This document shows positions 1-19,606 of a stretch of 64,000 bases of DNA, piece by piece (position 1 is the first letter of the stretch; the number at the start of each line of letters is the position of its first letter). The stretch lies in contig NZ_JAJMLZ010000006.1 in the NCBI RefSeq assembly GCF_022227765.1, positions 1 to 64,000 on the forward strand, given 5' to 3'. Made by a program: the position numbers and the translations under genes. This stretch comes from Ectothiorhodospira shaposhnikovii (lineage in GTDB: Bacteria > Pseudomonadota > Gammaproteobacteria > Ectothiorhodospirales > Ectothiorhodospiraceae). The notes under the pieces are model-generated. The model did no database searches. It was given only the letters and a program-made list of their open reading frames with translations, and was not told where the DNA came from.

Positions 1-176
1 CTCTGTTTGGCAATCCCTATGCAGGCCTCCGTCAATAGTTGCAGGTTGCGCTCTGCCGCACGATATATCAGGGGCGACAGGCCCTGCGGCGCCTGACTCA
101 ATGCGTGAAGCTGCTCAAGCTCTTCAGTCAGAGTGGCCAGATGCTCCCGCATGGCGCTCACGTACTCGATTTCCAC
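1..176 (-). CDS. HepT-like toxin/RNase (partial, runs off left edge)
   Basis: The minus strand from a possible GTG at 176 encodes VEIEYVSAMREHLATL, then the segment RAAERNLQLLTEACIGIAKQ, and continues past the left edge. The RAAER..QLL.EACI..AK pattern is characteristic of HepT (DUF86/HEPN) proteins of MntA/HepT toxin-antitoxin pairs. The conserved HEPN RNase motif (RxxxxH) would lie further left and is not visible. A nucleotidyltransferase fragment lies directly upstream in another frame, which fits an mntA-hepT order. The true start is uncertain because the junction with the upstream gene looks deleted. Confidence 0.55.
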   Translation of the reverse strand, partial: MEIEYVSAMREHLATLTEELEQLHALSQAPQGLSPLIYRAAERNLQLLTEACIGIAKQ

Positions 177-321
177 CGTCAGGTGTTCGGAAGGCAACCG
201 CCAAGTCGTAGTCGCTCGTCTCGGTAGCGGTATTTTTCGCACGAGAGCCATAAAGCCATAGCACGGCTATTTCCCTGTCGGCCGATGCCATTTCCGTCAA
301 GCGTTCCAGTGTTGTTCTCAC
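124..321 (-). pseudogene. MntA-like nucleotidyltransferase antitoxin, truncated
   Basis: Residues 1-43 from a GTG at 321 read as the start of a minimal nucleotidyltransferase: LYGSRAKNTATETSDYDLAV carries the GSRA-x(n)-SDYDLAV signature with the two metal-binding aspartates. MntA proteins are normally about 130-140 residues. Here the homology stops after the DYDLAVAF strand and the frame runs on for about 20 unrelated codons that overlap the hepT-like frame. A deletion that removed the rest of mntA and probably the first codons of hepT is the simplest reading. The fragment is unlikely to act as an antitoxin. Confidence 0.55.
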
Positions 322-400
322 TTGGATTCTCGTGGCCGGGTTCTGCGGCAGTGCTGTACGAGAGCAAAAGGCAGGTGTCCTTTCGCGATTGGTTTGAGAG

Positions 401-2939: not shown

Positions 2940-3914
2940 TCAGTGTTTACCGAGTAAGGTGTCCAGGCTGTCGGCCGACAGAATCTGCAGGACCCACTCG
3001 TCCAGCTGGGTATCCGTGGCTGAGGCCAAGCGTTTATCAGCCCATGCGGGCAGATCGCCAAACTTCAGGGTAATCAACTTGCGTAAAGTGCCTTCGACTC
3101 CTTCGTGACGGCCCCGTTCCAGGCCCCGCTCAAGGCCCTGCTTGATTCCCTGCTCAATCGCCAAGCGCTCAATGGTGTTCACGTAAGGCATGTGTCTCTC
3201 CTCCTGAATGGCATGGACCGCCTGAACAAATTCGGGTTCCAGTTCTCTTGGCAGCTGGATCATCCAGTCGATGATGTGGAACAGCCGCATGATTTCCCGT
3301 CGGTGGTATCCTCGTTCATAGAGCAACCGGATCAAGGCCACCTTCGTGTCCTTGCGCGAGGCACCCTGCTTGAGTCGCTTGGCCTTGATCTGTGCCATCA
3401 CCACCAGGGCAAAGACATTCTCGCTCGCCTCCAGCCCCGGCCATCGTTCCTCCCAGTCGATCAGCTTGGCGGTGGGGAAGGTGAAACTCAGCTCGCAACC
3501 CCAGCGGGCATACCGATAGCACATCGGCCGAAAGCTTGAGCGGGTATCCGCCAGCACCGCCAGGCTCACCACGTCGATGCCGTAGCGGTCCCGCAGACGA
3601 TACTGATAAGTGTACATCCGCTCGGCAAAGGCGTCTTCCGGCTCACCCTGAACCTCAACATGGATCAGCACCCAGGTCTCCGCCCCGTCACGGGCCTGGA
3701 CCTTGATCAACTTGTCCGCATGGCGCCGGCCACTCTCGGCATCCGCCGTGATCTGCTGCAGCTCCTTGTCCATGGGGGTATATCCCCGCGACCAGTCCAC
3801 CTCATCGTGGATCGCCGGGAACAGCAACTGCGTGAATTCCTGGAAGTAGTATTCCAGAGCCTCCTTCCACGGGCTGTCATGATCCGTGGGCCGGGCGGTG
3901 TCTTGATCGGTCAT
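2940..3914 (-). CDS. Rpn/PD-(D/E)XK nuclease family transposase-like protein (DUF4351-type C-terminus)
   Basis: 324 residues from ATG 3914, preceded by AGGAG with 7-base spacing. The N-terminal domain has the PD-(D/E)XK core of the Rpn family: RRHADKLIKVQ (D67) and WVLIHVEVQGEPE (E87-x-Q89), followed by FAERMYTYQYRLRDRYG. These proteins are described as recombination-promoting nucleases and often sit in mobile patches. The C-terminus has repeated charged QGLERGLERGR and a LRKLITLKFG....WA..RL.S segment typical of DUF4351. It is codirectional with the RAYT gene upstream and bracketed by 32-bp direct repeats. Function in this cell is unknown. Confidence 0.8.
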   Translation of the reverse strand: MTDQDTARPTDHDSPWKEALEYYFQEFTQLLFPAIHDEVDWSRGYTPMDKELQQITADAESGRRHADKLIKVQARDGAETWVLIHVEVQGEPEDAFAERMYTYQYRLRDRYGIDVVSLAVLADTRSSFRPMCYRYARWGCELSFTFPTAKLIDWEERWPGLEASENVFALVVMAQIKAKRLKQGASRKDTKVALIRLLYERGYHRREIMRLFHIIDWMIQLPRELEPEFVQAVHAIQEERHMPYVNTIERLAIEQGIKQGLERGLERGRHEGVEGTLRKLITLKFGDLPAWADKRLASATDTQLDEWVLQILSADSLDTLLGKH

Positions 3915-3942: not shown

Positions 3943-5061
3943 CTACATCACCGCCCGCCGCTCAAACACCCGCCGGGCCGCGCCCATCCCGCGCAGGAAT
4001 TTTGCCTGACGGCAGGCCGCATGTTCCACCAGCTTCGCCGGCTTGCCCACGGCGTGGCCGAATGCCTGCAACAGGCTCGTGCCGTGGGCAATGAAGGCCT
4101 CCGCGTCCATGCCCAGACGATCCAGCAACTTCGGTGTCTGCGCCGGCATGAATCCCCGCTTGGCGGGATGCACGCACCGACCCAGCACCTCCACCAGCGC
4201 CAGATAATCCGCCCAGGCAAAGGGCACCGCCCAGGGCTCCCGGCCGGTGGCATCAAAGGGCATCAGCGGGGCGACGGCAAGGGGCGCCAACCTGTGCTCG
4301 CAACGCAGTGCATCACGCCAGTGCGGGATGTCGGTCCCGGCCTCCCCGGACACCCGTGCCTCGTCCCCCTGGACCGAGTGCTTGGCCAATGCCGCCCGCA
4401 TCCGTGCCTCGGCCTTGTCCGGGCACAGGCGGGCCTCAAGACTGGTGTGCTCGCTGGTTTCCGGCGTGTCGGCGATTCCGGCCCGGATGGGGTTGAGATC
4501 CACATAAGCCATGGCACTGAGAATGGCCTGCTCATCCAGCAAGGCCTGGCTCTTGAAACGACCTTCCCAAAACCGCCCCCGAACCCCGTCCTCGGCATTG
4601 GCCTTGCGGGCGATGGTCTCGTTGAGCACCCGCATGAACCAGGACAGATCCACCAGACGGGAACGATAGATACCCACCCACTCCCGAACCTGGGCCAGTT
4701 CGGCATCGTGGAGGGTGTCCCGGGCCTGTGGGTCCAGATACCGCTGCACCACCGGCGGCCCGGAGAACACGCTGGTCCAGCGGCGCAATACCGCCTCATC
4801 CGACCAGCCCTGAGCGCGGCCCTGATCGATCCGGAGCACGATGTGATAGTGGTTGCTCATCACCGCATAGGCCGCCACGTCGATGGCGAAGACGGCGGCC
4901 AGTTGCCGAATTCTGGCCTCGATCCAGCCGCGCCGGTGTTCGAAGTTCTGGCCGGTGTGGTGGTCCTGCCCACAGAGGAAAGCGCGGCGGACACAGCGCG
5001 ACACCACGTGATACCAGGGCGTGTCGGTGACGGATACCAGTTCTGAGCGGGGTCGGGTCAT
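3943..5061 (-). CDS. REP-associated tyrosine transposase (RAYT), IS200-like Y1 family
   Basis: 372 residues from ATG 5061. The N-terminal Y1 domain starts with TPWYHVVSRCVRRAF and has the metal site MSNHYHIVL (H71-x-H73, the HUH motif). The segment RGRFWEGRFKSQALLDE leads into AMAYVDLNPIRAGI, where Y186 is the expected nucleophile. This arrangement and the single-gene context are typical of RAYT proteins, thought to mobilise REP-type palindromes by single-strand cuts. The C-terminal 170 residues are less conserved. The ends of this gene are close to a cluster of the AAAGTGGGTGTCCTTT repeat, the likely associated substrate. Confidence 0.85.
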   Translation of the reverse strand: MTRPRSELVSVTDTPWYHVVSRCVRRAFLCGQDHHTGQNFEHRRGWIEARIRQLAAVFAIDVAAYAVMSNHYHIVLRIDQGRAQGWSDEAVLRRWTSVFSGPPVVQRYLDPQARDTLHDAELAQVREWVGIYRSRLVDLSWFMRVLNETIARKANAEDGVRGRFWEGRFKSQALLDEQAILSAMAYVDLNPIRAGIADTPETSEHTSLEARLCPDKAEARMRAALAKHSVQGDEARVSGEAGTDIPHWRDALRCEHRLAPLAVAPLMPFDATGREPWAVPFAWADYLALVEVLGRCVHPAKRGFMPAQTPKLLDRLGMDAEAFIAHGTSLLQAFGHAVGKPAKLVEHAACRQAKFLRGMGAARRVFERRAVM

Positions 5062-5396: not shown

Positions 5397-5810
5397 TTAG
5401 GGGGCGGCAACGTTGCGGCAGCTAGCCGGTACGAACTTATGGTCAGTCGCGATCGATGTGCACTCCCACTCAACGCCGCCACCAACCATGGTTGCTGTGT
5501 AGGTAACAGCTACGTCACCTTGAGAGGTATCCACCGTTGCCACGATTGCCGGATTGTCTTCATCCTCAGTGCAGGCAATAGTTGTATTTCCAATCGTACC
5601 AGCCTCAACTCCGGTGCAATTTAAAGCATTTCCGACGATAAGGTTTTCAGAGACGGTGGATCTTGCGGCTGCTGCCATGCCAATACCTTCAGTTACCTGC
5701 GCGCGAACCGTATAGTTCTGATACGCCGGCAAAGCAATCGCCGCCAAAATACCAATAATCGCCACCACGATCATCAGTTCAATCAAAGTAAAACCCTTCT
5801 GATTCTGCAT
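5397..5810 (-). CDS. pilA: Type IV major pilin (PilA)
   Basis: 137 residues from ATG 5810 behind GGAGAG. The prepilin leader MQNQKG is cleaved before F7 (PilD site G-FTLIEL), giving the class IVa hydrophobic helix [20 protein letters not shown] and [12 protein letters not shown]. The glutamate at mature position 5 is present. Near the C-terminus a cysteine pair ([16 protein letters not shown]) forms the usual disulphide-bounded D-region. It is a single-gene unit with its own sigma-54-like promoter and a strong terminator, as expected for a highly expressed pilin. The assembly genes pilMNOPQ and the minor pilins lie in the next 19 kb. A longer frame upstream of 5810 has no pilin features and was not used. 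Confidence 0.95.
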
Positions 5811-5847: not shown

Positions 5848-5863
5848 AGCAAGCATGATGCCA
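5848..5863 (-). promoter_or_regulatory. Sigma-54 promoter of pilA
   Basis: On the minus strand TGGCAT-CATGC-TTGCT matches the RpoN consensus TGGCAC-N5-TTGCW at all but one position, with the GG and GC dinucleotides 10 bp apart as required. The predicted start is about 28 bases upstream of the pilin ATG. In Pseudomonas and relatives pilA is transcribed by RpoN with the PilSR two-component system; pilSR is not in the window. Confidence 0.8.
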
Positions 5864-6044
5864 ACTCCAGATTGGGGATGAACGGTACCAATCCCCTCTT
5901 GCCCGGTATTCCGGCCCCCGCCCCTCGCGACCCTTGGCACAACCCTGTAATGCCGACTAAAATTGTCGGCATTATTTTTCAATGCCATACCCTTCCAGCG
6001 GGATTCCTCCACCCGCTAAACTCCATTCAATGGAGGACCCGCGC

Positions 6045-6512
6045 ATGCCATCAATCACCCTGGAATCGGCCATCCAGCTGACCGGTCTAAGCAGAAGGAC
6101 CCTCTGGCGGCGTATCGCCACCGGCACGGTAAGACGCCTGGGCAGGACAGGAGGGCGAGGGCCGGGACATGCCAGGATCGAGCTGGAACTGATCCGCGGG
6201 GATATCCCCCTGCCGGATCTGGAAGACGAGGATCTTCAGGTCATCCAGCAGGCGGACGCCGGTGACCCCGCCGCCCGCCACGACGTGGCCCTGATGCTGA
6301 TGGAGGCCGGCTGCCAAGCGCTGGCCATCCACTGGCTGACAGCCGCCGCGAACCAGCAATACCCGGACGCCATGCACTGGCTGGGTCGCTGTCACATCAC
6401 GGGGGAGGGGGTGCCCAGGGACGAGGCGTTGGGGCTCTCCTGGATCCGGCGCGCCGCCGAGCGTGGTCATCTGATCTCGTGTCGGCAGATGGAAGCCTTG
6501 GGGCTGAAATGA
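6045..6512 (+). CDS. HTH-Sel1 repeat protein divergent from pilA
   Basis: 155 residues from ATG 6045; GGAGG at 6034-6038 fixes this start over an in-frame ATG at 6030. Residues 1-30 (ITLESAIQLTGLSRRTLWRRI) look like an excisionase/MerR-type helix-turn-helix. Residues 70-150 contain Sel1-like repeats: ARHDVALMLMEAGCQALAI, then AIHWLTAAANQQYPDAMHWL and ALGLSWIRRAAERGH. Sel1 repeats form an alpha solenoid for protein contacts. No signal peptide is seen, so it is cytoplasmic. It is transcribed away from pilA with starts about 235 bp apart, leaving a shared regulatory gap. A role in pilin regulation is inferred from position only. Confidence 0.75.
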   Translation: MPSITLESAIQLTGLSRRTLWRRIATGTVRRLGRTGGRGPGHARIELELIRGDIPLPDLEDEDLQVIQQADAGDPAARHDVALMLMEAGCQALAIHWLTAAANQQYPDAMHWLGRCHITGEGVPRDEALGLSWIRRAAERGHLISCRQMEALGLK

Positions 6513-6635
6513 CCGGTACTTCGTCTGGCCCGCCTCATCTTCCCAACGCTGCCATTCGTCGAACTCCTGATCATTTCAAGGCAAAACTAGGGTCAAATAC
6601 CTCGTAAAGCACGATTCATCAGCGAGGTTTACATC

Positions 6636-7103
6636 ATGAAGCCCCTCCGTAGCAGTCGGCCCGGCGGCCATGGCCGTCAGGCTGGCTTCTCCCTGATCGA
6701 GGCCTTGGTGGCGCTTCTTTTGCTCAGTGTCGGTTTACTGGGCCTCGCCGGTTTGCAATTGCTGGGCATGCAGAGTTCCCACTCAGCCTATCAAAGGACC
6801 GTGGCTACCGTGATCGCCATGGATGCCGGTGAACGACTGTGGATCAGACTGGGACAGGACGGGACGCTGGATGCCAATGCGTTGTCCGATGTGGAGAAGG
6901 AATGGCAGGATTTCTGGACCAACAAGAATTCAGTTGACGGGCGTGTTTCGCTGCCGGGTTTGTCGGACAGTCAGATCAGTGAAGCATCAGGGGGTAGGGT
7001 ATATACCATTCTGGTCCGCTGGTCCGAGGAGCGATTGAATGAGCCCGGTGGTATCTCCAGTTTTGAATACGTGGTTCGGTTGCCTCAGGAGATTACCCCA
7101 TGA
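6636..7103 (+). CDS. pilV: Type IV pilus minor pilin PilV, second set
   Basis: 155 residues. The prepilin site is RQAGFSLIEALVALLLLSVG followed by LLGLAGLQLLGMQSS, the classic PilV N-terminus (G-FSLIEA with Glu5). Minor pilins such as PilV prime pilus assembly and sit at the pilus tip complex. A GAGGT ribosome site precedes ATG 6636. It heads a three-gene plus-strand unit with pilW and a pilX-like gene. A second, different PilV is encoded at 14812-15273 on the other strand, so this copy is an additional set. Confidence 0.85.
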   Translation: MKPLRSSRPGGHGRQAGFSLIEALVALLLLSVGLLGLAGLQLLGMQSSHSAYQRTVATVIAMDAGERLWIRLGQDGTLDANALSDVEKEWQDFWTNKNSVDGRVSLPGLSDSQISEASGGRVYTILVRWSEERLNEPGGISSFEYVVRLPQEITP

Positions 7104-7678
7104 GTCGCGCTCCCACGATGGGTTTTCCCGCGCATCGGTCACACGGGCTGTCACTCGTGGAATTGATGGTCGCCTTGTTGATTGGGCTGATCCTACTGGT
7201 CGGGGTGGTGAACGTTTTCCTGGGAAATCAGGTGTCCTATCGGGAATCCCAGCGTCTCTCCCAGTTGCAGGAATCCATAGGGTACGCCGTGGATTTTATT
7301 GCCAGGGATGTGCGCGGGGCTTCGGGCGTGGTCTGGGACGAGAATGCCGGCGTGCTTGCGGTTACCCGTAGTCGAGATACTCAGTGGTGCAATGTCGGTG
7401 CCGGTGATCAGGCGCTGGTGTATTTCGTCCAGGGTAATGCCCTGTTCTGTGGCGCTTCCACTGCAAACGCCGTGGCCCTGGTGCCCGCGGTGGAGGATGC
7501 TTCCCTGGACGTGACTCTATTGCCGGCAGATCCCTTGGATGCCTCTTCTCCCATCATCGGTCTTTGGGTGGAAATGACTTTTCTGAGTCGGGCCACCCAA
7601 GGGGAGGCACCGCTGGAGCATCGCCTTGGTTTCCACGTTGCCCTGCGTAATGAGATCCTGAGACTCATATATAACTGA
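7100..7678 (+). CDS. pilW: Type IV pilus minor pilin PilW, second set
   Basis: 192 residues; the ATG overlaps the pilV stop by 4 bases, so translation is coupled. Prepilin site: HGLSLVELMVALLIGLILLV then GVVNVFLGNQVSYRESQ, the PilW pattern (G-LSLVEL). The segment IGYAVDFIARDVRGAS is the PilW signature after the helix. It is much shorter than the canonical PilW at 13784-14809 (341 residues) and lacks most of that protein's C-terminal half. Confidence 0.8.
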   Translation: MSRAPTMGFPAHRSHGLSLVELMVALLIGLILLVGVVNVFLGNQVSYRESQRLSQLQESIGYAVDFIARDVRGASGVVWDENAGVLAVTRSRDTQWCNVGAGDQALVYFVQGNALFCGASTANAVALVPAVEDASLDVTLLPADPLDASSPIIGLWVEMTFLSRATQGEAPLEHRLGFHVALRNEILRLIYN

Positions 7679-7709
7679 ATACACTCACTGGCCACAGAGG
7701 TAAGTTGCC

Positions 7710-8906
7710 ATGTCCAATGATTACCCAAGACAGCGGGGGGTTGCGCTGGTTGTCAGCCTGGTCCTGCTGGCGGTTGCTACTCTGGTTGGGGTGGCGACCC
7801 TGAACGGTAGTTTTCTACAGGAGCGGTTGGCCGGTAACGAACGGCAGGCCGCCAATGCCTTCATGGCCGCCGAAAGCGGTGTGAGCGAGGTGCTTGCGGT
7901 GTTACTGGACCCTGGTTACACCCAATGGAATGGGGCGGCGATCATGGATGCCGTCGGTGATGGGGTGCATGCGGTTCCCGGTAATGGTGGCGCCGCCTGG
8001 TCGCTGGAATCGGTGACGGTGACGAACACGGTCACTCTGGAAGTCCTGGGTATCGTGGCCGACACGGGGGCTCGTCGTATCCTGCAAGTGGAACTTGGTC
8101 TGCCGGGGGTGGGTGGACCCAACCCCGAATCAGCCTACACATGTTATGGCGCGGACTGCCGTACCCGAACCGGCTCCAACAGCAATAATGCCATTTACTA
8201 TGATGGTCGAGACTGGCGCACCCCTACTTCCAGTAACTGCACCGGAGCGGGCTGTAACGGCACTCTGAACAGTGAGCGGGATGGTGATGTTGCGGGGATT
8301 TACTTGGTGGGTAACAACGATCCCAACGCCATCAGCACGGGCAACCAGAATGGGGACAATCGCGCGGACCAGATTCAGGGTAACCCACCGAGAAAGCAGA
8401 CTGATGCCGCAACTACTGACAGTGGCGTGGGCGTCGATCAATGGAATGCCTATGCGGATGCCCTGATCGGCCGCCCAAGCACGGAGACCGTGACCGTGGG
8501 CGGCAACACGGTGGACATATCCAGCTTCCTGGGTGGACGTGATGCCCCCAAGGTTCACCATATCACCGGTTCCGGGAGTATCCGTCTGGGAGGCAACGAG
8601 CATGGTGCCGGCGTGCTCATCATCTCGGGTGATATCGAAATCTTCCCCGCCAACGGCACCATTACTTTCGAGGGGCTGATCATCCTGCGTGACGGAGCTC
8701 GACTGTCATCCGGTTCAGGCACCGCCAATATCTTCGGTTCCGTGATTTCCCTGACCGGCAACGAAAACGCGGTGGATGCGGACCTGGGGGGAAACTTTAC
8801 CCTTAAGTACAGTTCCGAGGCTTTGGAGAATCTTCGCCAGCACGGACTCTGGGGGGGCAGTGGCGGTCCGATTCAGGTGTTGTCCTGGCAGGAAAAAGTC
8901 AGCTGA
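7710..8906 (+). CDS. PilX N-terminal domain pilus assembly protein with long C-terminal domain
   Basis: 398 residues. The N-terminus RQRGVALVVSLVLLAVATLV, then QERLAGNERQAANAFMAAES, is the PilX signature (QERMAGN...FQAAE). Ordinary PilX is about 170-190 residues. Here about 230 extra residues follow, with two cysteine pairs (CYGADC, CTGAGC) and a C-terminal beta-rich segment: HHITGSGSIRLGGNEHGAGV, then LIISGDIEIFP and FEGLIILRDG. The C-terminal part resembles the beta-helical domains attached to some pseudopilin-like proteins; I cannot name it. It ends the second minor-pilin operon and is followed by a clear terminator. Confidence 0.75.
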   Translation: MSNDYPRQRGVALVVSLVLLAVATLVGVATLNGSFLQERLAGNERQAANAFMAAESGVSEVLAVLLDPGYTQWNGAAIMDAVGDGVHAVPGNGGAAWSLESVTVTNTVTLEVLGIVADTGARRILQVELGLPGVGGPNPESAYTCYGADCRTRTGSNSNNAIYYDGRDWRTPTSSNCTGAGCNGTLNSERDGDVAGIYLVGNNDPNAISTGNQNGDNRADQIQGNPPRKQTDAATTDSGVGVDQWNAYADALIGRPSTETVTVGGNTVDISSFLGGRDAPKVHHITGSGSIRLGGNEHGAGVLIISGDIEIFPANGTITFEGLIILRDGARLSSGSGTANIFGSVISLTGNENAVDADLGGNFTLKYSSEALENLRQHGLWGGSGGPIQVLSWQEKVS

Positions 8907-8920
8907 TCTTGTAAGCTTTG

Positions 8921-8950
8921 AAGGCGTCAGGCGGGTCCTGACGCCTTTTC
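8921..8950 (+). terminator. Rho-independent terminator after the second minor-pilin set
   Basis: Stem AAGGCGTCAG (8921-8930) pairs with CTGACGCCTT (8938-8947) around a 7-base loop and runs into a short T stretch. Confidence 0.85.
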
Positions 8951-9002
8951 AGGCTATGCCGACATATACCGCGTCGGTGCAGTGAGTCCGTGATCAATCA
9001 CA

Positions 9003-9410
9003 TTACCAGCAGTCGGCCCCTAGAGAACCTGTCGCCCCCCGCTCGCCCGTATGGGTAAGCGTGAACTTGGTACATTTGCCGTCCTTGGTCTGTGGGCTGC
9101 CAGTGGCCGGCGTGGCCTCCAGGGTGAAGGTGCTTGGGGTTTGCGTGGTGGCGCTGATGCTGTAATGACCGTCCTGCGATGTTTCCGGCACGGGGCAGCC
9201 AACATAAGTGTTTTGCCGGGTGTAACACCGTTCCAGTTGCTGTGCGGCGATCAATAGCGAGGTGGTGGCGTCGGTGCGGCGCGACTTGTTGACGTATTCG
9301 GTATAAGACGGGTAGGCAATCGAGGCAATGATACCGATGATCACCACCACGATCATGACTTCTATGAGGGTGAACCCCTTCTGTAACGACACATGTTGCA
9401 TCTGCGGCAT
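9003..9410 (-). CDS. pilE: Type IV pilus minor pilin PilE
   Basis: 135 residues. Prepilin site [20 protein letters not shown] followed by [19 protein letters not shown], the PilE pattern. A cysteine pair near the C-terminus (GKCTKF...GADCW) forms the D-loop. Starts at 9410 and 9401 are both possible. It is the last gene of the fimU-pilVWXY1Y2E cluster, the position pilE has in Pseudomonas aeruginosa. Confidence 0.9.
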
Positions 9411-9413
9411 TCC

Positions 9414-9761
9414 TTATTCAGGCAAGTAATCCAATATCTGAATATGGGTGACACTGACGGCGTCACCCGACCCCGTGGTGAGATAGCTGATGTACGTCCC
9501 CGGCCGGAGTTGCTCAAAGTGCGATCGACCGTCATCCAGGGCGGTGATCTTCAGATTGCTGCTCAGCCTGTAGACGGTTTCATCGATGATGATGCTGCCT
9601 CGGGCGATATCCACGGCGTTTATGTTCCCCACGATGCTGACCGGGTCTGCCAGGGTGGTGACCGGCAAGGCACCAAGCGCCGCGAGCAGCATGACCCGCA
9701 GGCCCTTGCCGATCCATGGCCCGCCGACGAGGCGGGCGTTGGTGGTGTTGTGCCAATCCAT
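9414..9761 (-). CDS. pilY2: PilY2-like secreted protein
   Basis: 115 residues with an internal hydrophobic segment (LRVMLLAALGALPVTTLA) that looks like a signal peptide starting from the inner methionine. The mature part (VSIVGNINAVDIARGSIIID) is predicted as a small beta barrel. P. aeruginosa has a similar-sized PilY2 between pilY1 and pilE; the identification here depends on that position and size. It is separated by 3 bp from pilE and 5 bp from pilY1, so it belongs to the same operon. Confidence 0.6.
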   Translation of the reverse strand: MDWHNTTNARLVGGPWIGKGLRVMLLAALGALPVTTLADPVSIVGNINAVDIARGSIIIDETVYRLSSNLKITALDDGRSHFEQLRPGTYISYLTTGSGDAVSVTHIQILDYLPE

Positions 9762-9766
9762 ATCCG

Positions 9767-12700
9767 TTACCTCAGTTGTTGCCAGGACTGACGTCCGTGC
9801 ATCCGGGGGTCTTCGACCGTGATCCGTCTACCCTGACCGTCAAAGACATAGCCGGACACACTGATGGGGCGCTCTCCCGTGCCGAATTCAAGGCCGGTGG
9901 GGGGCGCGTTATTCCAGTGGTCGTCCGCGTCAAACTCGCCGTCTTCGTTCAAGTCAAAGATCACACGGTCCGGCCGTGATCCCGAAAACAGGTTCAGTTC
10001 CATCAGGAACCCCCTGCGGCCGGTGCCGCAGGGGTCTTCATCCGGGATCATGGTAGTGAAGCGCACCCGTTGCTCGTTGAAGCCGCGTGGCAGCGTCGGA
10101 CCACTGATCACCCGTTCCCCCGTGATCCAGCTTAGGTCGATGTACCAGCCCCGGTGGTTGGATTGGAGATCGTAGTCGGAGATCCGGCGAAGTGTGTAGC
10201 TCCTGCCCCCCGTGGTGTGGGAGCCCTGCGCGACGATTTCCTGCTTGAGGAGCTGGTTACGGCCGCTGATCAGGCTGTTGGTATCCACCAGGCCGTAGAT
10301 CGTTTGTACCTGATTGCCGGGGCTGCCGCCGTCTTCCACCCGGAAATAGCTGCCGGTGCCGAAGGCCACCATGATGTTGTCGCCGTCTTCGTCAAGGGCC
10401 AGCACGGGGGCCGAGGTGATGGGCTGAGGATTGCCGCCAGGGTCCTGGGCCGTGAACAGCTTGGTGGCGGACCACTGACCGGCGTTGTTGTGGCTGAGGT
10501 TGAATCGCCACAGGTTACCCTGCAAATCACCGGCATAGGCTCTGGTAGCCTTCAGGCTGCGGTCCGGCCAGTCGGTCCAGCGTGGCGCCCCCAGCCCGTT
10601 GGGCGAGCCGCCGCTACCCGTGCCGGTGCTGATCTTGCGGATCAGCTGGCCGTCGCTGAGGCGAACGACAAAAAGCATCGCCTGGTGACTGTTGCTGTTG
10701 TAGCCGTTGCCGAAGATGGCGGCCCATTCACCGTTGCTACCGACGCGGGCGATGGTGGGCTGCCCCACGTTGTAACCCAGGTCATTGTCGGTGAATTCCC
10801 ATAGCACCTTGGCGGGGCCGAAGCTTGACGGGTCGGTGACATCAAGCGCGAAGATGCTGCGCCCGCCAGCCCCCATGGTGCCCAGTAATATGGTCTTCCA
10901 TTGGCCACCGATCTGGGCCTCGTCGACATAGGCGGTTCCATCCACGTAGAAGCGGTGACTGTATTCCGGGTCCATGAGGCGGGCCAGGGGTGAAAACGAG
11001 GTGTTCGGTTCGGGTTTCAGCAACTCGCCGGGGATAAAGGCAAACAACTCCTCTCCGGTATCGGCATCGAAGGCATGCAACATGCCGTCGTTGGCACCGG
11101 CATAGATCACCCGCGCCCGTTGTCTGAATGCGGGCGCTCCCAGCAGACGGCTGAAGCCATTGTAGTGTTGTCCGATGAACTGGGGATCCGAGTTGATGAT
11201 GTCTCCCAGCAATCGGGCCGGTCCGGACTCGGAGCGGCTACGGAAGCTCTGGTGGGCCGCTTCATCGCCGCGCAGCCAGGCTATCCGTTCGGCGGCAAGG
11301 TTGTCCTGAGTGCCGTTAGGGGTGTGGTTGAGGGCATTGATCTGGGCGGATGTCAGGGCGCCGGGCTGGAAAGAGATGCCCTGTCCGGTGCCATTGGTGG
11401 TGACGATGTTTCGAGCCGCATGCCCTTTGGCACGCAGCTTCTGTTCGGCGTCCCAGCAGGCCGGGCAGTTGCCGTCCAGGTTGCCGCCTTCGCCGATCTG
11501 TTTGGACGTCAGGCTGCCGGACCAGTCACCGGACCGAAAGCCGGTGGTGTAGAGCAGGGTATCTTCCTGCAGGACTGCCGAGCTGGCCGCGGCGGAGGTG
11601 GCGGAACTTTCCACCCGTCCGATAAATTCCTCCAGCACCGCGGCCAGTTCGTCCGCAAAGGTTTTGGGGTCCGAGGCACTGAAAAAACCGCCTCGGCCAT
11701 TGATGGCCGCGTGGAGCATGTCATCGATCTTGGCGGAGTCGGCGTCACTGGGGTGGGGGTTGGGCCAGGGCGTGGACAGGGCCGAGTAGGGCGGCGTGGC
11801 CGCCTGGAAGGCTGCGTCCTTGTCGATGCTGCCTGATACCCCCAGTCCCACGGTATAGGTGACCATGTGTTGCCAGAAGGCCGGGTTGCGTTCACTGACG
11901 GGGACCCGATTGGGAAGGTCGGGGCGAAGGTCGTTTTTCCAGAACTTCATGGCCACATCGGCCAGGGTGTTGCTGTGGCTGTCGGAAAAGGGCGCCGAGA
12001 CGGTATAGCCGCCGGTGACACCGCCGGGGCCGGTCAGAGTGGTATTGCCGCTGCCATCCTGATTGCCCACGCCCGGGTCGGGGCCGTTCCAGTAACCGTC
12101 GGACATGAGAAAGGCGGAGCTATGGCGGCAGCTCAAGTCCTGGCCACCGCTCTGGCCCGGGGTACTGCTCCAGGGGCCGCGATCATCGGTGCGCTCATAG
12201 TATTCGCCCACGCCTCTGAGGGCCATGCGCAGGGGGGTGCCGGCCGCGGGGACCGGCCGGGTGTAGAGCTCATTGAAAAAGGCTTCCCGGTTGCTGCCGG
12301 AAAAGGGGCGTACGCCGCTCACCACGGTGCGTGTGCTGATCCCATCGATGTTGCTGTAGCCCTTGTTGATCGCCCCGTAGCCTACCCGCAGGTTTTCCGG
12401 CTGGATGGCAAAGGCGGCGCCGATGCCGCCGCGGGCGGCGAAGATGCGGCTTCGATGGTAACTGTACCAGTTGGCAAAGTTCTGGATTTCTTCGGCATAC
12501 GTGCAGGTGGCGCCGGCGGCATTGGCGCAGTCGGTGCGGTGCTGCCGCCCATGACCGGTGTAACTTTCCGTGGTGGAACGGATTTCCACCCGGGTGTAGC
12601 TATCGGCGCTCATCACCGGGCCGCTGTTGTAGTGGTAGTAGAGTGCCGGGTAAAAGGTCTGGCTCGTATTCGTGTGACCACCGCTGCTGTTGAGCCAGTT

Positions 12701-13231
12701 GGTGGTCTGGGTATTGTCCACCGTCAGGTTGCGCGTCCCGAATTCCGGAAACAGGGGGCGGTTAGGGGCTGCCTTCGGATCGGCGTTGGGCATGGTGGTG
12801 CCATTTGCGTTGAACCAGGGCTTATAGGTGATGGCCGGGTTGTAGTAGACGGTGTTGTTGTGGGATGAGCGGAAATAGGCGGTGTTGTTGCTGTGACTGA
12901 AACGGACCGTCCTTTGGTTGCTGTACTGCGAACTGCCACCGTGCAGGTTCTGCACCCGGGGGAAGGTCCACATGACGTATTGGCTGTTCAGATCGTTACC
13001 AAATGTCTTGGTCAGTTCATCCGGCATGGTTTCCCATTGCATCGATCCCGAGTCGTCGATGATGAAGACCACGTTGGGGTCGACGCTGGCGGTCAGAAAC
13101 AGGGGAGCGTTGGCGATGTTGACCTGGGCGGCGGCGGGGAGCGCCGTGAACAGTGCCATGCCAAATCCCAGGAGTCCGGCGGACAGTGGGCGGGCCTGGG
13201 GCCGCCGTTGGAGGGGACTGGATGTCATCAT
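9767..13231 (-). CDS. pilY1: PilY1 tip adhesin / pilus biogenesis factor
   Basis: 1154 residues from ATG 13231 behind AGGAG; a TTG six bases upstream was not chosen. A signal peptide (LLGFGMALFTALPAAAQ) precedes a von Willebrand A-like domain with the metal site DDSGSM (DxSxS, residues about 59-63). The C-terminal half is the PilY beta-propeller, with GRSIFALDVTDP and a calcium-loop-like LDEDGDNIMVAFGTG; a second loop FDLNEDGEFDADD lies near the end. PilY1 sits at the pilus tip, binds calcium, and in Pseudomonas links surface contact to retraction control. Its size is typical. It is the fifth gene of the minor-pilin operon. Confidence 0.95.
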   Translation of the reverse strand: MMTSSPLQRRPQARPLSAGLLGFGMALFTALPAAAQVNIANAPLFLTASVDPNVVFIIDDSGSMQWETMPDELTKTFGNDLNSQYVMWTFPRVQNLHGGSSQYSNQRTVRFSHSNNTAYFRSSHNNTVYYNPAITYKPWFNANGTTMPNADPKAAPNRPLFPEFGTRNLTVDNTQTTNWLNSSGGHTNTSQTFYPALYYHYNSGPVMSADSYTRVEIRSTTESYTGHGRQHRTDCANAAGATCTYAEEIQNFANWYSYHRSRIFAARGGIGAAFAIQPENLRVGYGAINKGYSNIDGISTRTVVSGVRPFSGSNREAFFNELYTRPVPAAGTPLRMALRGVGEYYERTDDRGPWSSTPGQSGGQDLSCRHSSAFLMSDGYWNGPDPGVGNQDGSGNTTLTGPGGVTGGYTVSAPFSDSHSNTLADVAMKFWKNDLRPDLPNRVPVSERNPAFWQHMVTYTVGLGVSGSIDKDAAFQAATPPYSALSTPWPNPHPSDADSAKIDDMLHAAINGRGGFFSASDPKTFADELAAVLEEFIGRVESSATSAAASSAVLQEDTLLYTTGFRSGDWSGSLTSKQIGEGGNLDGNCPACWDAEQKLRAKGHAARNIVTTNGTGQGISFQPGALTSAQINALNHTPNGTQDNLAAERIAWLRGDEAAHQSFRSRSESGPARLLGDIINSDPQFIGQHYNGFSRLLGAPAFRQRARVIYAGANDGMLHAFDADTGEELFAFIPGELLKPEPNTSFSPLARLMDPEYSHRFYVDGTAYVDEAQIGGQWKTILLGTMGAGGRSIFALDVTDPSSFGPAKVLWEFTDNDLGYNVGQPTIARVGSNGEWAAIFGNGYNSNSHQAMLFVVRLSDGQLIRKISTGTGSGGSPNGLGAPRWTDWPDRSLKATRAYAGDLQGNLWRFNLSHNNAGQWSATKLFTAQDPGGNPQPITSAPVLALDEDGDNIMVAFGTGSYFRVEDGGSPGNQVQTIYGLVDTNSLISGRNQLLKQEIVAQGSHTTGGRSYTLRRISDYDLQSNHRGWYIDLSWITGERVISGPTLPRGFNEQRVRFTTMIPDEDPCGTGRRGFLMELNLFSGSRPDRVIFDLNEDGEFDADDHWNNAPPTGLEFGTGERPISVSGYVFDGQGRRITVEDPRMHGRQSWQQLR

Positions 13232-13264
13232 TGGCAACTCCTGATTACGTGCGTCCGGGGGTCA

Positions 13265-13774
13265 CTAAGGTCTGCAGGGCCAGAGGCAGTAGCTCTGCAC
13301 GATGGCGATGGCCGAATCCGTTCCGCCCATGCCACGGGACAAGACGGGATAATAGCTCAGGACACTGCCGGCCCCGGCGGCGCCCTCGCCGGCGATATCG
13401 ACCGTGTATCCGCGCACCAGCCTCGGGGTGGACACCAGGTATCTAGGGTTTTGCACAAGCTGGGGGTCATTCATCGCGTAGATACCGGAATGCGTGACGC
13501 CATCCCAGTTCCTGGGATTGTTCGGTGTCGCCGTGCCTTCGGCGATCAGCATGTTGGCACCCTCGTCCAGCCAGCGTTCACCGGCCCGCAAGGCGGCCTC
13601 GCTGGCCTGAAAGGCCAGGCTGCGGTCCCTCAAATTGCCGGCCATGCGTTCCTGGAGTGTCGTCTGCTGGAGTGCGGAGACGCCCACCATGGTCATGAGC
13701 AGCAGAAAGACCAGAGCGATGATGAGGGCCGAGCCTTGTTGGCAGGGCGCGGTCTTCAGGGGATGGCCGGTCAT
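13265..13774 (-). CDS. pilX: Type IV pilus assembly protein PilX
   Basis: 169 residues. The N-terminus QQGSALIIALVFLLLMTMVG, then SALQQTTLQERMAGNLRDRS and LAFQASEAALRAGE, is the full PilX signature. Length is typical. It forms the priming complex with FimU, PilV, PilW and PilE and helps place PilY1 at the tip. It starts 9 bp after pilW and is followed by pilY1. Confidence 0.95.
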   Translation of the reverse strand: MTGHPLKTAPCQQGSALIIALVFLLLMTMVGVSALQQTTLQERMAGNLRDRSLAFQASEAALRAGERWLDEGANMLIAEGTATPNNPRNWDGVTHSGIYAMNDPQLVQNPRYLVSTPRLVRGYTVDIAGEGAAGAGSVLSYYPVLSRGMGGTDSAIAIVQSYCLWPCRP

Positions 13775-13783
13775 GGGGCGACC

Positions 13784-14809
13784 TCAGCGCAGTCGGTTGC
13801 GAATGGCGATGGTGGTGGTGGCCACCTGTCTGACTCGTCGGTCCTCGGCGGTGAAGGCCGCACCATTAAAATAGACGGTTTGAGCCGCGTCGAGGGTATT
13901 GTCGGCCGAGGATGCCAGCAGGAGGCTGATGCGTATGCTCAGGACGTTGGGCCAATCATCCGTGGCGGTGACCTGGTCCGCGGTCCGGTAAAGGTTGATC
14001 ACGCCGTTTCGGTTGGTGTCCACACCGTATTGAATCTGCATGTTTTCGACCCCGGTGACCAATTCTTCCACTTGCCCGGGGAATGTCCGTCGCCAGAGTG
14101 CATTCAGGGCCGGGACGACATCGCTTTGGCTGATGAAAAACGTGGTCTGAAGGAAGGACATGACATCGGCGCCTTCTTCGTAGACCTTGGACAGGAAGTT
14201 GGTGGTATTGCTTGACGAGGCGTGGGCGATGGTGATGGGCGAGGTGTTCTGGGAGACGTTGGTGGCCCTGAAAATATCCATGGATTCGCAGTCCGAGATG
14301 ATCAGGATGTCTCCGGCCTTCCATTGCCCCACGTTGCTTTCAAGCTTGGCGTTGGCATTGGCTACCTTTTCCTCGATGAGACGACCCACGGGGGGGCGGC
14401 CACCGGTCATGATCAGCAGGTCCGTCCCCTCGGTCACGGCACGGCCGCCGATGGTGGTGCCGGCGGGAACGTTGTCGAGCCCGTCCAGCACCTGATCGAC
14501 GTCAAAGACCACGGAGCCGGCCGGGCTGGCGATGATGTTGACATTGAGGTTTTCGTTGGCTCTTACGCAGCCGACGAAGCCGGCCATGCGTACGGCGTGG
14601 CTGATCTCGTCGGTGGCAAAACGGGCGTTTTCCTGAATCACGGACAGCTGTTGCTGGAGGCGGTAGGTCTGCTGGGTGCCCAGGAATAGCTGGATGATTC
14701 CGGCGGTGATGATGAGGGCGATGACCATGGCCACCATCAGTTCGACCAGGGAAAGCCCGGTTTCACGGCGTGCGCAAGGAGGCAGGCTGGCGATGTCGGG
14801 TCTGTCCAT
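13784..14809 (-). CDS. pilW: Type IV pilus minor pilin PilW
   Basis: 341 residues. Prepilin site RETGLSLVELMVAMVIALII then TAGIIQLFLGTQQTYRLQ. The region after the helix (NARFATDEISHAVRMAGFVG) and the block ENMQIQYGVDTNRNGVINLY near residue 270 are conserved in PilW. Length is typical. Two bases separate it from pilV upstream. Confidence 0.95.
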   Translation of the reverse strand: MDRPDIASLPPCARRETGLSLVELMVAMVIALIITAGIIQLFLGTQQTYRLQQQLSVIQENARFATDEISHAVRMAGFVGCVRANENLNVNIIASPAGSVVFDVDQVLDGLDNVPAGTTIGGRAVTEGTDLLIMTGGRPPVGRLIEEKVANANAKLESNVGQWKAGDILIISDCESMDIFRATNVSQNTSPITIAHASSSNTTNFLSKVYEEGADVMSFLQTTFFISQSDVVPALNALWRRTFPGQVEELVTGVENMQIQYGVDTNRNGVINLYRTADQVTATDDWPNVLSIRISLLLASSADNTLDAAQTVYFNGAAFTAEDRRVRQVATTTIAIRNRLR

Positions 14810-14811
14810 GG

Positions 14812-15273
14812 CTAAAACAGCCTCGTGCTGAACTCGAACTGCTGAAGGAAGTCGGCGTTCTGGTCTTCCCGTTCATTCCATCGGATGCGGACGGTGACCG
14901 TGTCTCCGGCCCGGGTGATGGCGCCGTCCCCGCGGGGAAGGAGGCAGGCCAGCAGGTTTCGCCATTCTTCCAGGTCGTCGGAGGCCGGATCGGCACCGGA
15001 AGGGGTGAAGTCCGTATCGCAGTTCGGGTTGCCGGAAAAACCGGATTCGTAGGCGCCGGTCAGGTTGGCGCGCATGCGGTCGGTAATGTCGTAGGCCAGG
15101 AAGGTTGCCTGGGAGCGAAGCTGGGCATCGTGGTTGAAACGCATGGCGGTGGCTTGCAGACCGGCAAGTCCCAGCAAGCCGATGGCGAGGACCAGAACCG
15201 CGACCATGGCTTCGATCAGGGTGTAGCCTTGTTGCGGTGGGGGAGGGAAACACGTGGTGCGACGGCATTCCAT
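14812..15273 (-). CDS. pilV: Type IV pilus minor pilin PilV
   Basis: 153 residues from ATG 15273, placed behind GGGGAG with 6-base spacing; a longer frame upstream has no matching ribosome site and would give an oversized leader. Prepilin site QQGYTLIEAMVAVLVLAIGL then LGLAGLQATAMRFNHDAQLR, the PilV pattern. It lies between fimU and pilW in the canonical order. Confidence 0.9.
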   Translation of the reverse strand: MECRRTTCFPPPPQQGYTLIEAMVAVLVLAIGLLGLAGLQATAMRFNHDAQLRSQATFLAYDITDRMRANLTGAYESGFSGNPNCDTDFTPSGADPASDDLEEWRNLLACLLPRGDGAITRAGDTVTVRIRWNEREDQNADFLQQFEFSTRLF

Positions 15274-15293
15274 TTGCGACTCCCCTTCGATGA

Positions 15294-15776
15294 TCAACAA
15301 GGTCCAGAGGTAACGCTGGAGCGTCCCGTATTGTGAATTTCCAGGGTCCGGCGCATGCCGGCCTTTCCGGATGGGCATCCCTGGGGTTTGATTTCCAGGC
15401 TGATCACCCCGGCCGGTTCTGTCTTGGCGCCACGGCCATCAAAGCGGATGGCTGCCTGGTTGTTGGGGGTGACCGTCATGTTTTTCATTGCCGGGAACTG
15501 CCGCAATATGTCCGTACCGGTGCAGTTTGCTCCCAAATGCACGCACCAGCCAGTGGCAAAATTATTGCCGGTGGCGGTCACGGAAACCTGGCCCCCACGC
15601 TTGATGGCTTCGCTGCGCGCCAGGGCGAAGGCGGACACCAGTTCATTGGTCTGCGTGGTGACCCGGTTGCTCTGGATCATCTGGGTGAAACCAGGCACTG
15701 CCACCGTTGCCAGGATGGCGGCCACGGCCAGGGTGACCATCAACTCGACAAGTGTGAATCCGTTGGCTCTGTTCAT
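15294..15776 (-). CDS. fimU: Type IV pilus minor pilin FimU (GspH/FimT family)
   Basis: 160 residues from ATG 15776. Prepilin site RANGFTLVELMVTLAVAAIL then ATVAVPGFTQMIQSNRVTTQ; the following LVSAFALARSEAIKRG is the GspH/FimT signature. The C-terminal domain ends with a cysteine pair typical of FimU. It is the first gene of the minus-strand fimU-pilV-pilW-pilX-pilY1-pilY2-pilE operon. A longer upstream frame lacks pilin features. Confidence 0.9.
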   Translation of the reverse strand: MNRANGFTLVELMVTLAVAAILATVAVPGFTQMIQSNRVTTQTNELVSAFALARSEAIKRGGQVSVTATGNNFATGWCVHLGANCTGTDILRQFPAMKNMTVTPNNQAAIRFDGRGAKTEPAGVISLEIKPQGCPSGKAGMRRTLEIHNTGRSSVTSGPC

Positions 15777-16005: not shown

Positions 16006-19000
16006 TCAAACATCATCCGCGCAGGTGGCGGACTGACCAAACGGGCTTGGGTTCCCCGGCGGGCCGGGTGAAAGTGGATCCGCATCTTCAGCCAGGATGG
16101 GCAGCCTGAATTTGACGATTTCGATGGATTCCGTGCCGGTAACAACGGCCCTGGCTCGCATCTCCACATCCACCCAACGGGCAAATTGCTGGAAGTAGAC
16201 CACGTCAAAGTCTGCAAACCCCGTGGCATCGGTTCTCAGGTTCAACTGGGAAAACGTAACGACATTGCCCGGATCAAGTCTGCTGTTGTTGTTGAAATCC
16301 TCACCCGGATCGAGGATGCCGTTGCGGTTTTGGTCTTCATTTTCACACCCGGGAATTGTGGTGATGACTTGATTCCAGGGCAATGCCGGGGCCGGCTTTT
16401 CCCAATAGCCTTTGTAGTACCGTACCGGCCAGATCTCTATGGTCACATCGGCGTTGGCGACAGGGGCGCCTGAAACGTCGGTGATGAGTACCCCATAGGG
16501 CTTGGCGTATCTGACACTGTCGGGTTTTGCGATCACATTACCCGTGCCAAGGGTGATGAACAGGGATTTCTGGGCCGTGGTCAGTCTCACGATCTGTTCA
16601 ACGGATGGGGTGTCATCCACCCAGGCCCTGATTTCAATCCCGTCCGTGGTGCTGGAGGTGGTGCCGGCCGTATAGGTGGTGGAGGCACGACCAAAGGCAT
16701 CGGTCACGGCGGCGGCCGGGGAGATGCTGCCGCCGGTGATGTCCGTCAGATTGAATCTGACCAGCTTGTTTTTCACCAAGTTGCCGTCGGGGTCTCTGAT
16801 GACAGCGATGATCTCACTCTGTTCGGTATCCTGACCCTCCAGATTGGTTGAGAGTACCGCCGGTTCGGCCTGCAGCGTCATGGTGTCTGCCTGGGTGGCC
16901 ACGAAAAGCAGCTCCCTGCGCGCTTCGGGTCCACCCACGGTCGTGGCCGTGATGATCGACGGGCCTGAACTGGTGGATCTGATCTCAATGGTGGCTTCAC
17001 CATTGCCGTTGGTGGTGACTTCCGCCGGACTCACCAGGAAGGTACCTCGCGTGGCGGTGAATCTGACCACCTGCCCCGCCACGGGAGTGGGGGGGCTGCC
17101 CGTTTCCCAGCGAACGGTCAGTGCCTGATTGGTGCCGATGGGGATTTCTGCATTGGCATCCGGACTCAGGAAGGTGAGGGTGTCGGTGGAAACATCCAGC
17201 GTGAACTGCGAGGTGGCACCTTCACCCGTGACGGTAATGCTGTCATTGCCGCCCTGATCCGCAACGATCTGGACGGTGGCCTGACCATTAGTGCCGGTAA
17301 CCGGGTTGGGGGTCAGAACCGTGTTCCCTGTGCTGGATGCCACGGTCAGTGCGGCATTGGGAATGGCTCTCCCGGCCGAATCTCTCAGGGCCAGGGTCAG
17401 GTTGACGGTTTCACCCACGATGACGGATGACGTCGGTCCTGTGATGGTGATGGTTGTACCCGTAACCCGAATCTGCGTGCTGGAGGTCACGGAGCCCACA
17501 CTGGCGGTGGCCGTGACGGTCCGGTTGGATTTGTCCTGAAGCGTGCGCAATTGAGCCTGTGCCGTACCGGATTCATCGGTGATGCCCCGGATGACCTGGA
17601 CTGCGGTATCGCTATCCGCCGAGAAGGTGACCCGCACGTCTTCCATGAGTACGTTGTTGGCGTCGCGGACGAAGGCCGTCAGGGTGACCGGTTGATCTCC
17701 CGCCGAGGCCAGCTGGGGTGTGTTGCTGAGCAGGACGATGCTGCTGACGACCGGATCTGAGGGATCACCGCCGCCTATGGAGGGGCGGATGCGTACCGTC
17801 CAGTTACCACCCTCAACAATACGCAGGAGGTACCAGCCCGGGTCCAGGGTCAGGTATTCCCAGGCAAAACCGTCACCCGTTTCATCATATAAGGTATCTA
17901 TGAGTACGCCATTGGCGTCCAGCAGTTCCACGGTAAACCTGCCGCCGCCGATATGACGCAGGTCGAATTCGTTCTCACCGCTCAGCTGGAAAGGAATGAT
18001 GGCCGGTCCGGTACCATTGAACTCACCCTCTGCGTTGCTGATGAAAATGGTGTAGGCCTTGAAGGCAAGGCCGCCCTCTGCATCGCTGAGCCGGACAATG
18101 AAGTTGAATGTTCCTGAAGTGGTTGGGGTGCCGCTGATAGTGCCATTAGCAGAGTCGAGATTCAGGCCCAGCGGTAATCCACCTTCCTGTATGGACCATG
18201 TGTAGGGTCGCACACCTTCGCTGCCTTCCAGAGCCGCAGCGTAGAATTCACCTTCCCGACCTGTTGGTAAGTCCTCTGGATCGGTGTCAAAAACCGGTGC
18301 TTCCGGTGTGCTGACCGTGATCAGCATTGGCAGATAGGCCACGCCGTTGCTCTGATCTTGAATGCGGACAATGAAGTGGTAAATACCCGGACTGGTGGGT
18401 ATGCCACTGATGGTTCCATTGGTGGAATTCAGAGTCAATCCTGTGGGTAAGGATCCTGATTCGAGGGTCCAGCTATAAGGGGCCAGCCCACCTGTTACAT
18501 TGATTTGGCCTGCGTACTGCTTGTCGACGACACCGCTGGGTAGTTCAGAAGTGGTGATTTGCGGGGCGTCTGCTGTGTTGACCAGGATAGAAAGTACCTG
18601 GAATGCGGTTGCATTGTTTCCTTGACCTGTGGCACTTACGACAAAGTTGAAGGTGCCCGTGGTGGCGGGTGTTCCATTGATGACACCCTCGCTGCTCAGG
18701 GTAAGTCCGTCAGGCAGTGCACCAGCATGAACAGACCATGCATAGGGGGCTTGTCCCCCGCTGGCTTGGAGCAGGGCAGAGTAATTGATACCCAAGACAC
18801 CGTTTGGCAGAGCAGCTGTACTGATAGCTGGAGAATCAGGGCTGTTGACTAGAATGGTCAGGGTGCGATAAGCGATGATCTGGTTGTTGTCCGTAACACT
18901 GACGATGAAATTATAGACGCCAGTGGTGTTGGGGGCGCCTGTGATATTTCCATTTTCCGTATTCAGGGCAAGACCCGGCGGCAATACCGTATCGTCTTCA

Positions 19001-19542: not shown

Positions 19543-19606
19543 CGGCATGGCTCCAATGCACTTGATTCGGGTGTTTCTTTGTTCTTGCGTGGTAACGGAG
19601 TGACGC

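Follow-up and report, generated by a model that had tools for sequence, protein, structure and literature searches.

What kind of pilus tip, if any, can be made by a set of minor pilins that has no PilY1 of its own, when PilY1 is widely considered to prime the assembly of type IVa pili and to act as their tip adhesin? The question is raised by a locus of Ectothiorhodospira shaposhnikovii, in the 64,000-nucleotide stretch of DNA analysed here (the window, on contig C36 of the 3.34-Mb genome G000), where a pilV-pilW-pilX-like unit, named pilV2-pilW2-pilX2 or set 2, lies beside a canonical fimU-pilVWXY1Y2E operon (Table 1). This tip set is unusual in having no PilY1 and in having a PilX that carries a predicted beta-solenoid. 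An earlier, sequence-only reading had considered the set incomplete, and had suggested that the large PilX-like protein might itself provide a tip function, giving the cell two alternative tips. Is set 2 a degraded copy of the canonical operon, an accessory to it, or a tip in its own right? The evidence assembled below makes it likely that pilV2-pilW2-pilX2 is a self-contained alternative type IVa pilus tip, in which a solenoid PilX takes the place of PilY1.

Table 1. Features of the pilV2-pilW2-pilX2 locus and of the neighbouring canonical operon (window coordinates).
Feature	Positions	Strand	Basis or remark
pilA, major pilin, divergent neighbour	5397-5810	-	ORF call and Pfam
Sel1-repeat gene, between pilA and pilV2	5982-6512	+	Pfam; gene neighbourhood
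Exchanged block versus the near relative G004	6501-9410	.	very different set in G004, pilE included
pilV2, PilV-like minor pilin, 155 aa	6636-7103	+	prepilin site G/FSLIE (cleavage at the slash), Glu5 present; TIGR02523
pilW2, short PilW-like minor pilin, 192 aa	7100-7678	+	prepilin site G/LSLVE, Glu5 present
pilX2, long PilX-like pilin, 398 aa	7710-8906	+	PilX_N, E 1.7e-14; predicted model
PilX2 leader (to Gly10) and N-terminal helix, residues 1-65	7710-7904	+	sequence; model
PilX2 pilin beta strands, residues 66-132	7905-8105	+	model; pilin/pseudopilin structure matches
PilX2 inserted module, residues about 133-385, predicted beta-solenoid and side helix	8106-8864	+	models
PilX2 last strand, residues about 386-398 (...VLSWQE)	8865-8903	+	kept in module-less relatives
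Hairpin terminator between pilX2 and convergent pilE	8920-8948	.	-26.9 kcal/mol, z -3.4; 0 of 200 shuffles as stable
fimU-pilVWXY1Y2E operon, contrasting PilY1 tip set	9003-15776	-	Pfam and gene neighbourhood
PilE	9003-9410	-	
PilY2	9414-9761	-	
PilY1	9767-13237	-	
Canonical PilX, 169 aa	13265-13774	-	
Canonical PilW, 341 aa	13784-14809	-	
Canonical PilV	14812-15276	-	
FimU	about 15294-15776	-	

The presence of a second plus-strand unit of this type next to pilA, already proposed in the sequence-only reading, is borne out by the ORF calls, which place the three genes in one co-directional unit (6636-8906), with an overlap of 4 bp between the pilV2 stop and the pilW2 start and a gap of 31 bp between pilW2 and pilX2. 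Family matches agree: N_methyl in PilV2 and PilW2 and PilX_N in PilX2 (Pfam), and TIGR02523 (PilV) in PilV2, at 60.3 bits for an NCBIfam cut-off of 52.2. The hairpin that follows pilX2 was missed in the terminator scan, having too few T, but is evident from the RNA fold. Two sigma-70-like sites were found, for 1.8 expected, neither of them shortly upstream of pilV2, and a sigma-54-like site upstream of pilA (5848-5863, minus strand) is one of 29 in the window, compared with 35.8 in shuffles. Three genes adjoining pilA are presumably transposase-like (OrfB-type, 1420-2556; PD-(D/E)XK-type, 2940-3914; REP-type, 3943-5061), and relatives of the last two likewise adjoin pilA in another genome (G002). 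A second copy of the Sel1-repeat gene (51% identical) adjoins another pilA-like gene on contig C35 (L154:3889-4440), so that the Sel1/pilA pairing recurs.

The canonical genes belong to a minus-strand run in the order pilQ, Ig-domain lipoprotein, fimU, pilV, pilW, pilX, pilY1, pilY2 and pilE. A PF05567 search of the whole genome found PilY1 at a single place, in this operon, and none beside pilV2-pilW2-pilX2, in agreement with the first reading of the locus. PilW2 is indeed short (192 versus 341 aa for its canonical counterpart), and has no Pfam match to PF16074, a family matched by the canonical PilW (1.1e-24); PF13681 is matched weakly by the canonical PilX (8.7e-4, below the cut-off) and not by PilX2 in the Pfam search. 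The earlier description of set 2 as incomplete is not supported: its PilV-PilW-PilX core is whole and only FimU and PilY1 are absent. In the interval between fimU and pilQ, the Ig lipoprotein (16006-19548, 1180 aa) carries He_PIG and Big_1 domains, and its counterpart in G004 is a replacement of about 25% identity, the protein being hypervariable.

PilX2 is 229 aa longer than the canonical PilX and possesses two CX4C pairs (Cys 145/150 and 177/182) in its extra part, which had been noticed from the sequence; this part however starts near residue 133 and not 170, and rather than being appended as a beta-rich C-terminal end, it is predicted to be inserted before the last strand. At position 5, mature PilX2 has Val in place of Glu, and with it a capping-type N-terminus on a PilX/GspK-type helix. 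In the full-length model, strands 86-130 and 389-396 flank the module, and pilin structures align to the first and last parts of the protein (18..398 and 42..398). Modelled alone, the module reached a pTM of 0.80 and a mean pLDDT of 72, with 56 of 262 residues below 50. Foldseek returned no match at E <= 1e-3 for either the full-length model or the module alone; for the latter, ranks 1-12 were all DUF3494-type ice-binding proteins (best E 9.4e-3), and the tyrosine phosphatases topping the full-length list (E >= 0.6) were taken as chance. With VIA, ice-binding proteins occupied rows 1-25 for the module alone (Z 9.7-11.2, rmsd 3.3-4.4, 158-176 residues), followed by Thermus thermophilus ComZ (Z 7.2, rmsd 3.8, 180 residues) and then by a row at 5.2, and the full-length model gave the same list at lower scores (Z 7.9-9.8, ComZ 6.7). 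On these models, the module is predicted to be an ice-binding-type beta-solenoid situated between the penultimate and the last pilin strand, and the structure prediction gave no housekeeping fold. At the sequence level, Pfam, NCBIfam and PHROGs returned the PilX/GspK N-terminus only, chance matches, or nothing, and no Pfam family, DUF3494 included, matched the module at E <= 0.1. Nothing relevant came up when PDB sequences were searched with phmmer and with profiles, and ComZ was not found by profile A1 against PDB sequences at E <= 10. PilX2 is a modular pilin in the broad sense, namely a pilin with a non-pilin module. The likeness to DUF3494 proteins (FfIBP, 4NU2, and others) is one of predicted fold alone and gives no reason to expect ice binding, which was set aside as a function of the module.

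The boundaries of the module can also be read from relatives that lack it. In three genomes (G035, G037 and G038), the PilX of a similar set has only 160-161 aa: as far as the penultimate strand (...REVQGRYRRP) it aligns with long PilX at 49-64%, and within a few residues it passes to the last strand (L.GW.EL), which is present in long PilX too. This comparison, made on sequence alone, supports a module that is an insert, with the final GW.E segment as part of the pilin. When the profile of the Ectothiorhodospira module was compared with two other groups of long PilX, probabilities of 96.7 and 96.6 were obtained (E 3.5e-10 over 139 columns and 6e-10 over 84 columns, respectively), and at this profile level the module core is recognisable in three groups of long PilX. 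Between PilX2 and six orthologues, identity is 53-77% in the solenoid core and 61-70% in the N-terminal part of the insert, for 24-37% in the pilin sheet. Among the orthologue pairs analysed in two parts, the closest has a dN/dS of 0.047 for the module versus 0.15 for the pilin part. With higher identity and lower dN/dS, the module is thus the conserved part of the protein. For whole PilX, dN/dS among orthologues and paralogues ranges from 0.07 to 0.30, that is, purifying selection.

ComZ (PDB 6QVI; PMC6561018) is likewise a GspK-like pilin without Glu5, whose large ice-binding-protein-like beta-solenoid lies between the penultimate and last pilin strands, as predicted for PilX2, and both genes stand beside those of small minor pilins (PilA2, its partner, for ComZ; pilV2 and pilW2 for PilX2). 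The two proteins differ in several respects: no sequence similarity was detected between them, the solenoid has about 250 residues in PilX2 and about 380 in ComZ, and PilX2 is acidic, has PilV/PilW-type partners, and coexists with a PilY1 set or, in relatives, stands instead of one. Could PilX2 then be a DNA receptor, and set 2 a competence tip as proposed for Thermus ComZ? The predicted architecture is shared with ComZ, which binds DNA, and ComEC (PF03772) occurs in all ten genomes of the genus, although the same search also matched 10 of the 14 control genomes, E. coli among them. The module, with 3 Lys and 13 Arg versus 27 Asp/Glu (net -11; pI 4.5 for PilX2), does not favour this role, a weak point as acidity is common in halophiles. 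Moreover, the canonical operon already supplies, in PilE, a match to the ComP DNA-receptor family (PF16732, 4.7e-22), and FimU/FimT is present, FimT being a known DNA receptor, with the E. haloalkaliphila protein included in an alignment in the available text of PMC8897410. A role in DNA uptake is thus conceivable but unlikely.

How often does long PilX occur where PilY1 does not? PilX genes were classified from the open frame, stop to stop, at each PilX_N place, as short (< 300 codons) or long (>= 300); the below-cut-off places G000:C4 (161) and G034:C4 (299) were not counted, and the below-cut-off G016:C1 (431) was counted as long since its gene was read. Absence of PilY1 stands for absence of a PF05567 match, which in fragmented genomes could be a missed gene; G031 and G023 are single contigs. 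In the 47 genomes of the family, PilY1 was found in 25 and PilX_N in 41, and all 47 gave a PilT-family match, above the cut-off in 45. Nine of the ten genomes of the genus have one PilY1. The tenth, G005, has none, no PilX_N match and no PilT above the cut-off (best E 6.4e-48); a small pilin set with a PilW-like protein and a 159-aa pilin adjoins its pilQ (L053).

Among the 38 good genomes (>= 90% complete, <= 5% contaminated), 14 combine PilY1 with short and long PilX and 9 have PilY1 with short PilX only, short PilX being present in all 23 good genomes with PilY1. A long PilX with neither PilY1 nor short PilX was found in 11, all with PilT at E 1e-146 or better, and 2 have none of the three. 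In the remaining 2 (G035 and G037), PilX is short and lacks the module, and PilY1 was not found, suggesting that neither module nor PilY1 may be strictly required. In G038, PilY1 and the sole short PilX, of the module-less kind, are on different contigs. G010 (81% complete), which is among the 47 and outside the 38, has PilY1 and long frames only, one of which (549 codons) may hide a short PilX gene. On a PilT tree of 43 genomes (without G005, G021, G040 and G042), the PilY1 state changes at least 7 times. The 37 good genomes on the tree yielded 7 independent pairs; short PilX follows PilY1 in 5-6 of these and does the opposite in none (sign test, p 0.031-0.063), and long PilX goes with PilY1 in 1-2 pairs and against it in 3-4. 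Tracking of PilY1 by short PilX is expected, because canonical PilX and PilY1 belong to one operon; what is informative is how often long PilX occurs on its own.

These counts also bear on the idea that the pilins of set 2 join the canonical tip complex below PilY1, as accessory or regulatory subunits. The two sets are neighbours in the window, and long PilX is also present in 15 of the 25 PilY1-bearing family genomes. The other 10 lack it, however, so that the set is not a universal partner of the canonical operon; a single position would be contested by two capping pilins, both without Glu5; the 11 good genomes mentioned above have long PilX without any PilY1; and the long-PilX set lies on another contig than PilY1 in G001, G006, G008 and G009. 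Such co-assembly seems decidedly unlikely. Since the core is whole, no PilY1 accompanies it, and many relatives have long PilX only, set 2 is best read as a PilY1-independent tip and not as an incomplete copy. The suggestion that the large PilX itself supplies the tip gains from the ComZ-like predicted fold, the module-less relatives and the relatives with long PilX and no PilY1, the tip location, the PilY1 independence in this cell and a binding role being inferred.

In G002, pilE directly adjoins pilA and the slot between them is empty, while in the window Sel1-pilV2-pilW2-pilX2 fill this slot on the opposite strand; in G006, G007 and G009, the Sel1 gene lies directly 3' of pilX2 and is part of the cassette there. 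Compared with the window, G004 has flanking genes of 92-96% DNA identity, and in the slot, from where the Sel1 gene ends to where pilE starts, a different set whose PilX has 428 codons, the exchanged block having a GC content of 49.4% versus 61.7% in the neighbouring operon. The 3' part of pilA (5397-5708) cannot be aligned with G004, whereas its 5' part is 92% identical, pilA being a variable major pilin; the Ig lipoprotein is likewise not alignable. The genome under study also harbors a second long-PilX set (G000:C38:5734-8128, L036), with pilV, pilW and a PilX of 425 aa, which is common to G004 (88% amino acid identity, dN/dS 0.20) and has as neighbour a 961-aa TPR lipoprotein that we take to be PrsT-like. 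This C38 set is not a mere copy of the window set, its PilX being about 40% identical and its gene neighbourhood different. Together with the canonical set, at least three tip sets are present in the genome, one more than the two alternative tips first envisaged.

With the A2 profile, the closely related module was detected in 20 of the 47 genomes of the family and in 2 of 274 genomes of the class, one of which is the genome under study. The broader core profile A6 matched 22 of 369 genomes of the class (Gammaproteobacteria) and 9 of 398 of the phylum. In the 20 class genomes other than G000 and G001, a PilX-type helix was present in the same protein in 17, mostly beside a PilV-like gene, and absent in 3; among further phylum matches, the helix was found in G485 and G603 and not in G682, G506, G774 and G720. 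The core in G682 (L181:1156-2226) is in a secreted-looking protein without the helix, presumably MshQ-like. Genus g3 commonly shows a second layout, FimU-PilW-PilX (400-450 aa)-PilV (about 470-620 aa), in which the extension of the very large PilV-like pilin beside the solenoid-core PilX (L084-L109) is another module.

Two other origins of set 2 appear highly improbable. A type II secretion pseudopilus, hinted at by a GspK match (NF037980) in PilX2, was rejected on NCBIfam scores, this match being far under the cut-off (21.1 bits versus 130) and confined to the N-terminal part, while PilV2 passes the PilV model and the GspK insert is elsewhere in the sheet. A decaying duplicate of the canonical minor-pilin operon might adjoin it and lack FimU and PilY1 as set 2 does, near genes that we assume to be of transposase type, but every frame is open, PilX orthologues and paralogues are under the purifying selection described above, and pilV2-pilW2-pilX2 resembles sets of other species more than it does the canonical operon.

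How would a PilY1-independent tip be built? The accessible part of PMC12040237 describes the minor pilin without E5 as the capping one, with the order PilX>PilV>PilW>FimT, and in the available text of PMC13190605 (2026), modelled tip complexes have the order PilA, FimU, PilW, PilV, PilX, PilY1, with PilY1 joined to PilX by beta-strand complementation. Having no Glu5, PilX2 is by this rule the capping pilin. It would be laid down first, PilV2 and PilW2, with Glu5, coming after, and the link to the shaft below set 2 would be provided by the canonical FimU or by PilA. The PilX2 chain would exit the sheet after the penultimate strand, make the solenoid and return, its own last strand closing the sheet, so that the PilX-PilY1 strand pairing in trans would be replaced in long PilX by a module in cis. 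Set 2 would thus sit at the tip, dispense with PilY1 in this cell and have a binding role, and the cell could build PilY1-tipped pili or either of two solenoid tips, from the window set or the C38 set.

Several sets per genome, acting as alternative tips and made, like set 2, of PilV, PilW and PilX homologues, are described in the available texts on canonical systems. In the excerpt of PMC9109919, Myxococcus is proposed to accessorise its pilus tips with different PilY1 proteins, and each of its three clusters has a PilY1 gene in the available part of PMC13190605; in Xylella, the accessible text of PMC9956873 gives two pilEVWX sets with different roles and three PilY1. In contrast, set 2 has no PilY1, its PilX carries a module, and its PilW is short. 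According to the part of PMC8179133 available, the Streptococcus sanguinis PilB and PilC also have a module grafted on a pilin, probably tip-exposed and in their case ligand-binding; these modules are vWA or lectin, unlike the solenoid predicted in PilX2, and that of PilB is attached by a linker after the pilin part instead of being inserted in the sheet. In the accessible parts of the open PMC literature, no account was found of ComZ-like pilins in Gammaproteobacteria or of long PilX replacing PilY1.

Taken together, these results strengthen, without proving, the case for a ComZ-like modular tip pilin in Gammaproteobacteria, as predicted from the models, one that in many relatives occurs in the absence of PilY1 and that is exchanged as a cassette. 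More tentatively, solenoid-PilX sets might form a second general class of type IVa tips in Gammaproteobacteria, plug-in cassettes that replace PilY1 and perhaps bear a sulfur-binding face. These sulfur bacteria deposit sulfur outside the cell, and one may speculate that ordered surfaces, elemental sulfur for example, could be bound by an ice-binding-type face. If the self-contained tip is confirmed, it would extend the architecture of ComZ, a solved Thermus protein, to Gammaproteobacteria, with the core in 22 of the 369 genomes sampled. Genomes that keep PilT and have only a long solenoid PilX, with no PilY1, represent a natural test of what a pilus tip requires, and suggest how such tips get swapped between strains.
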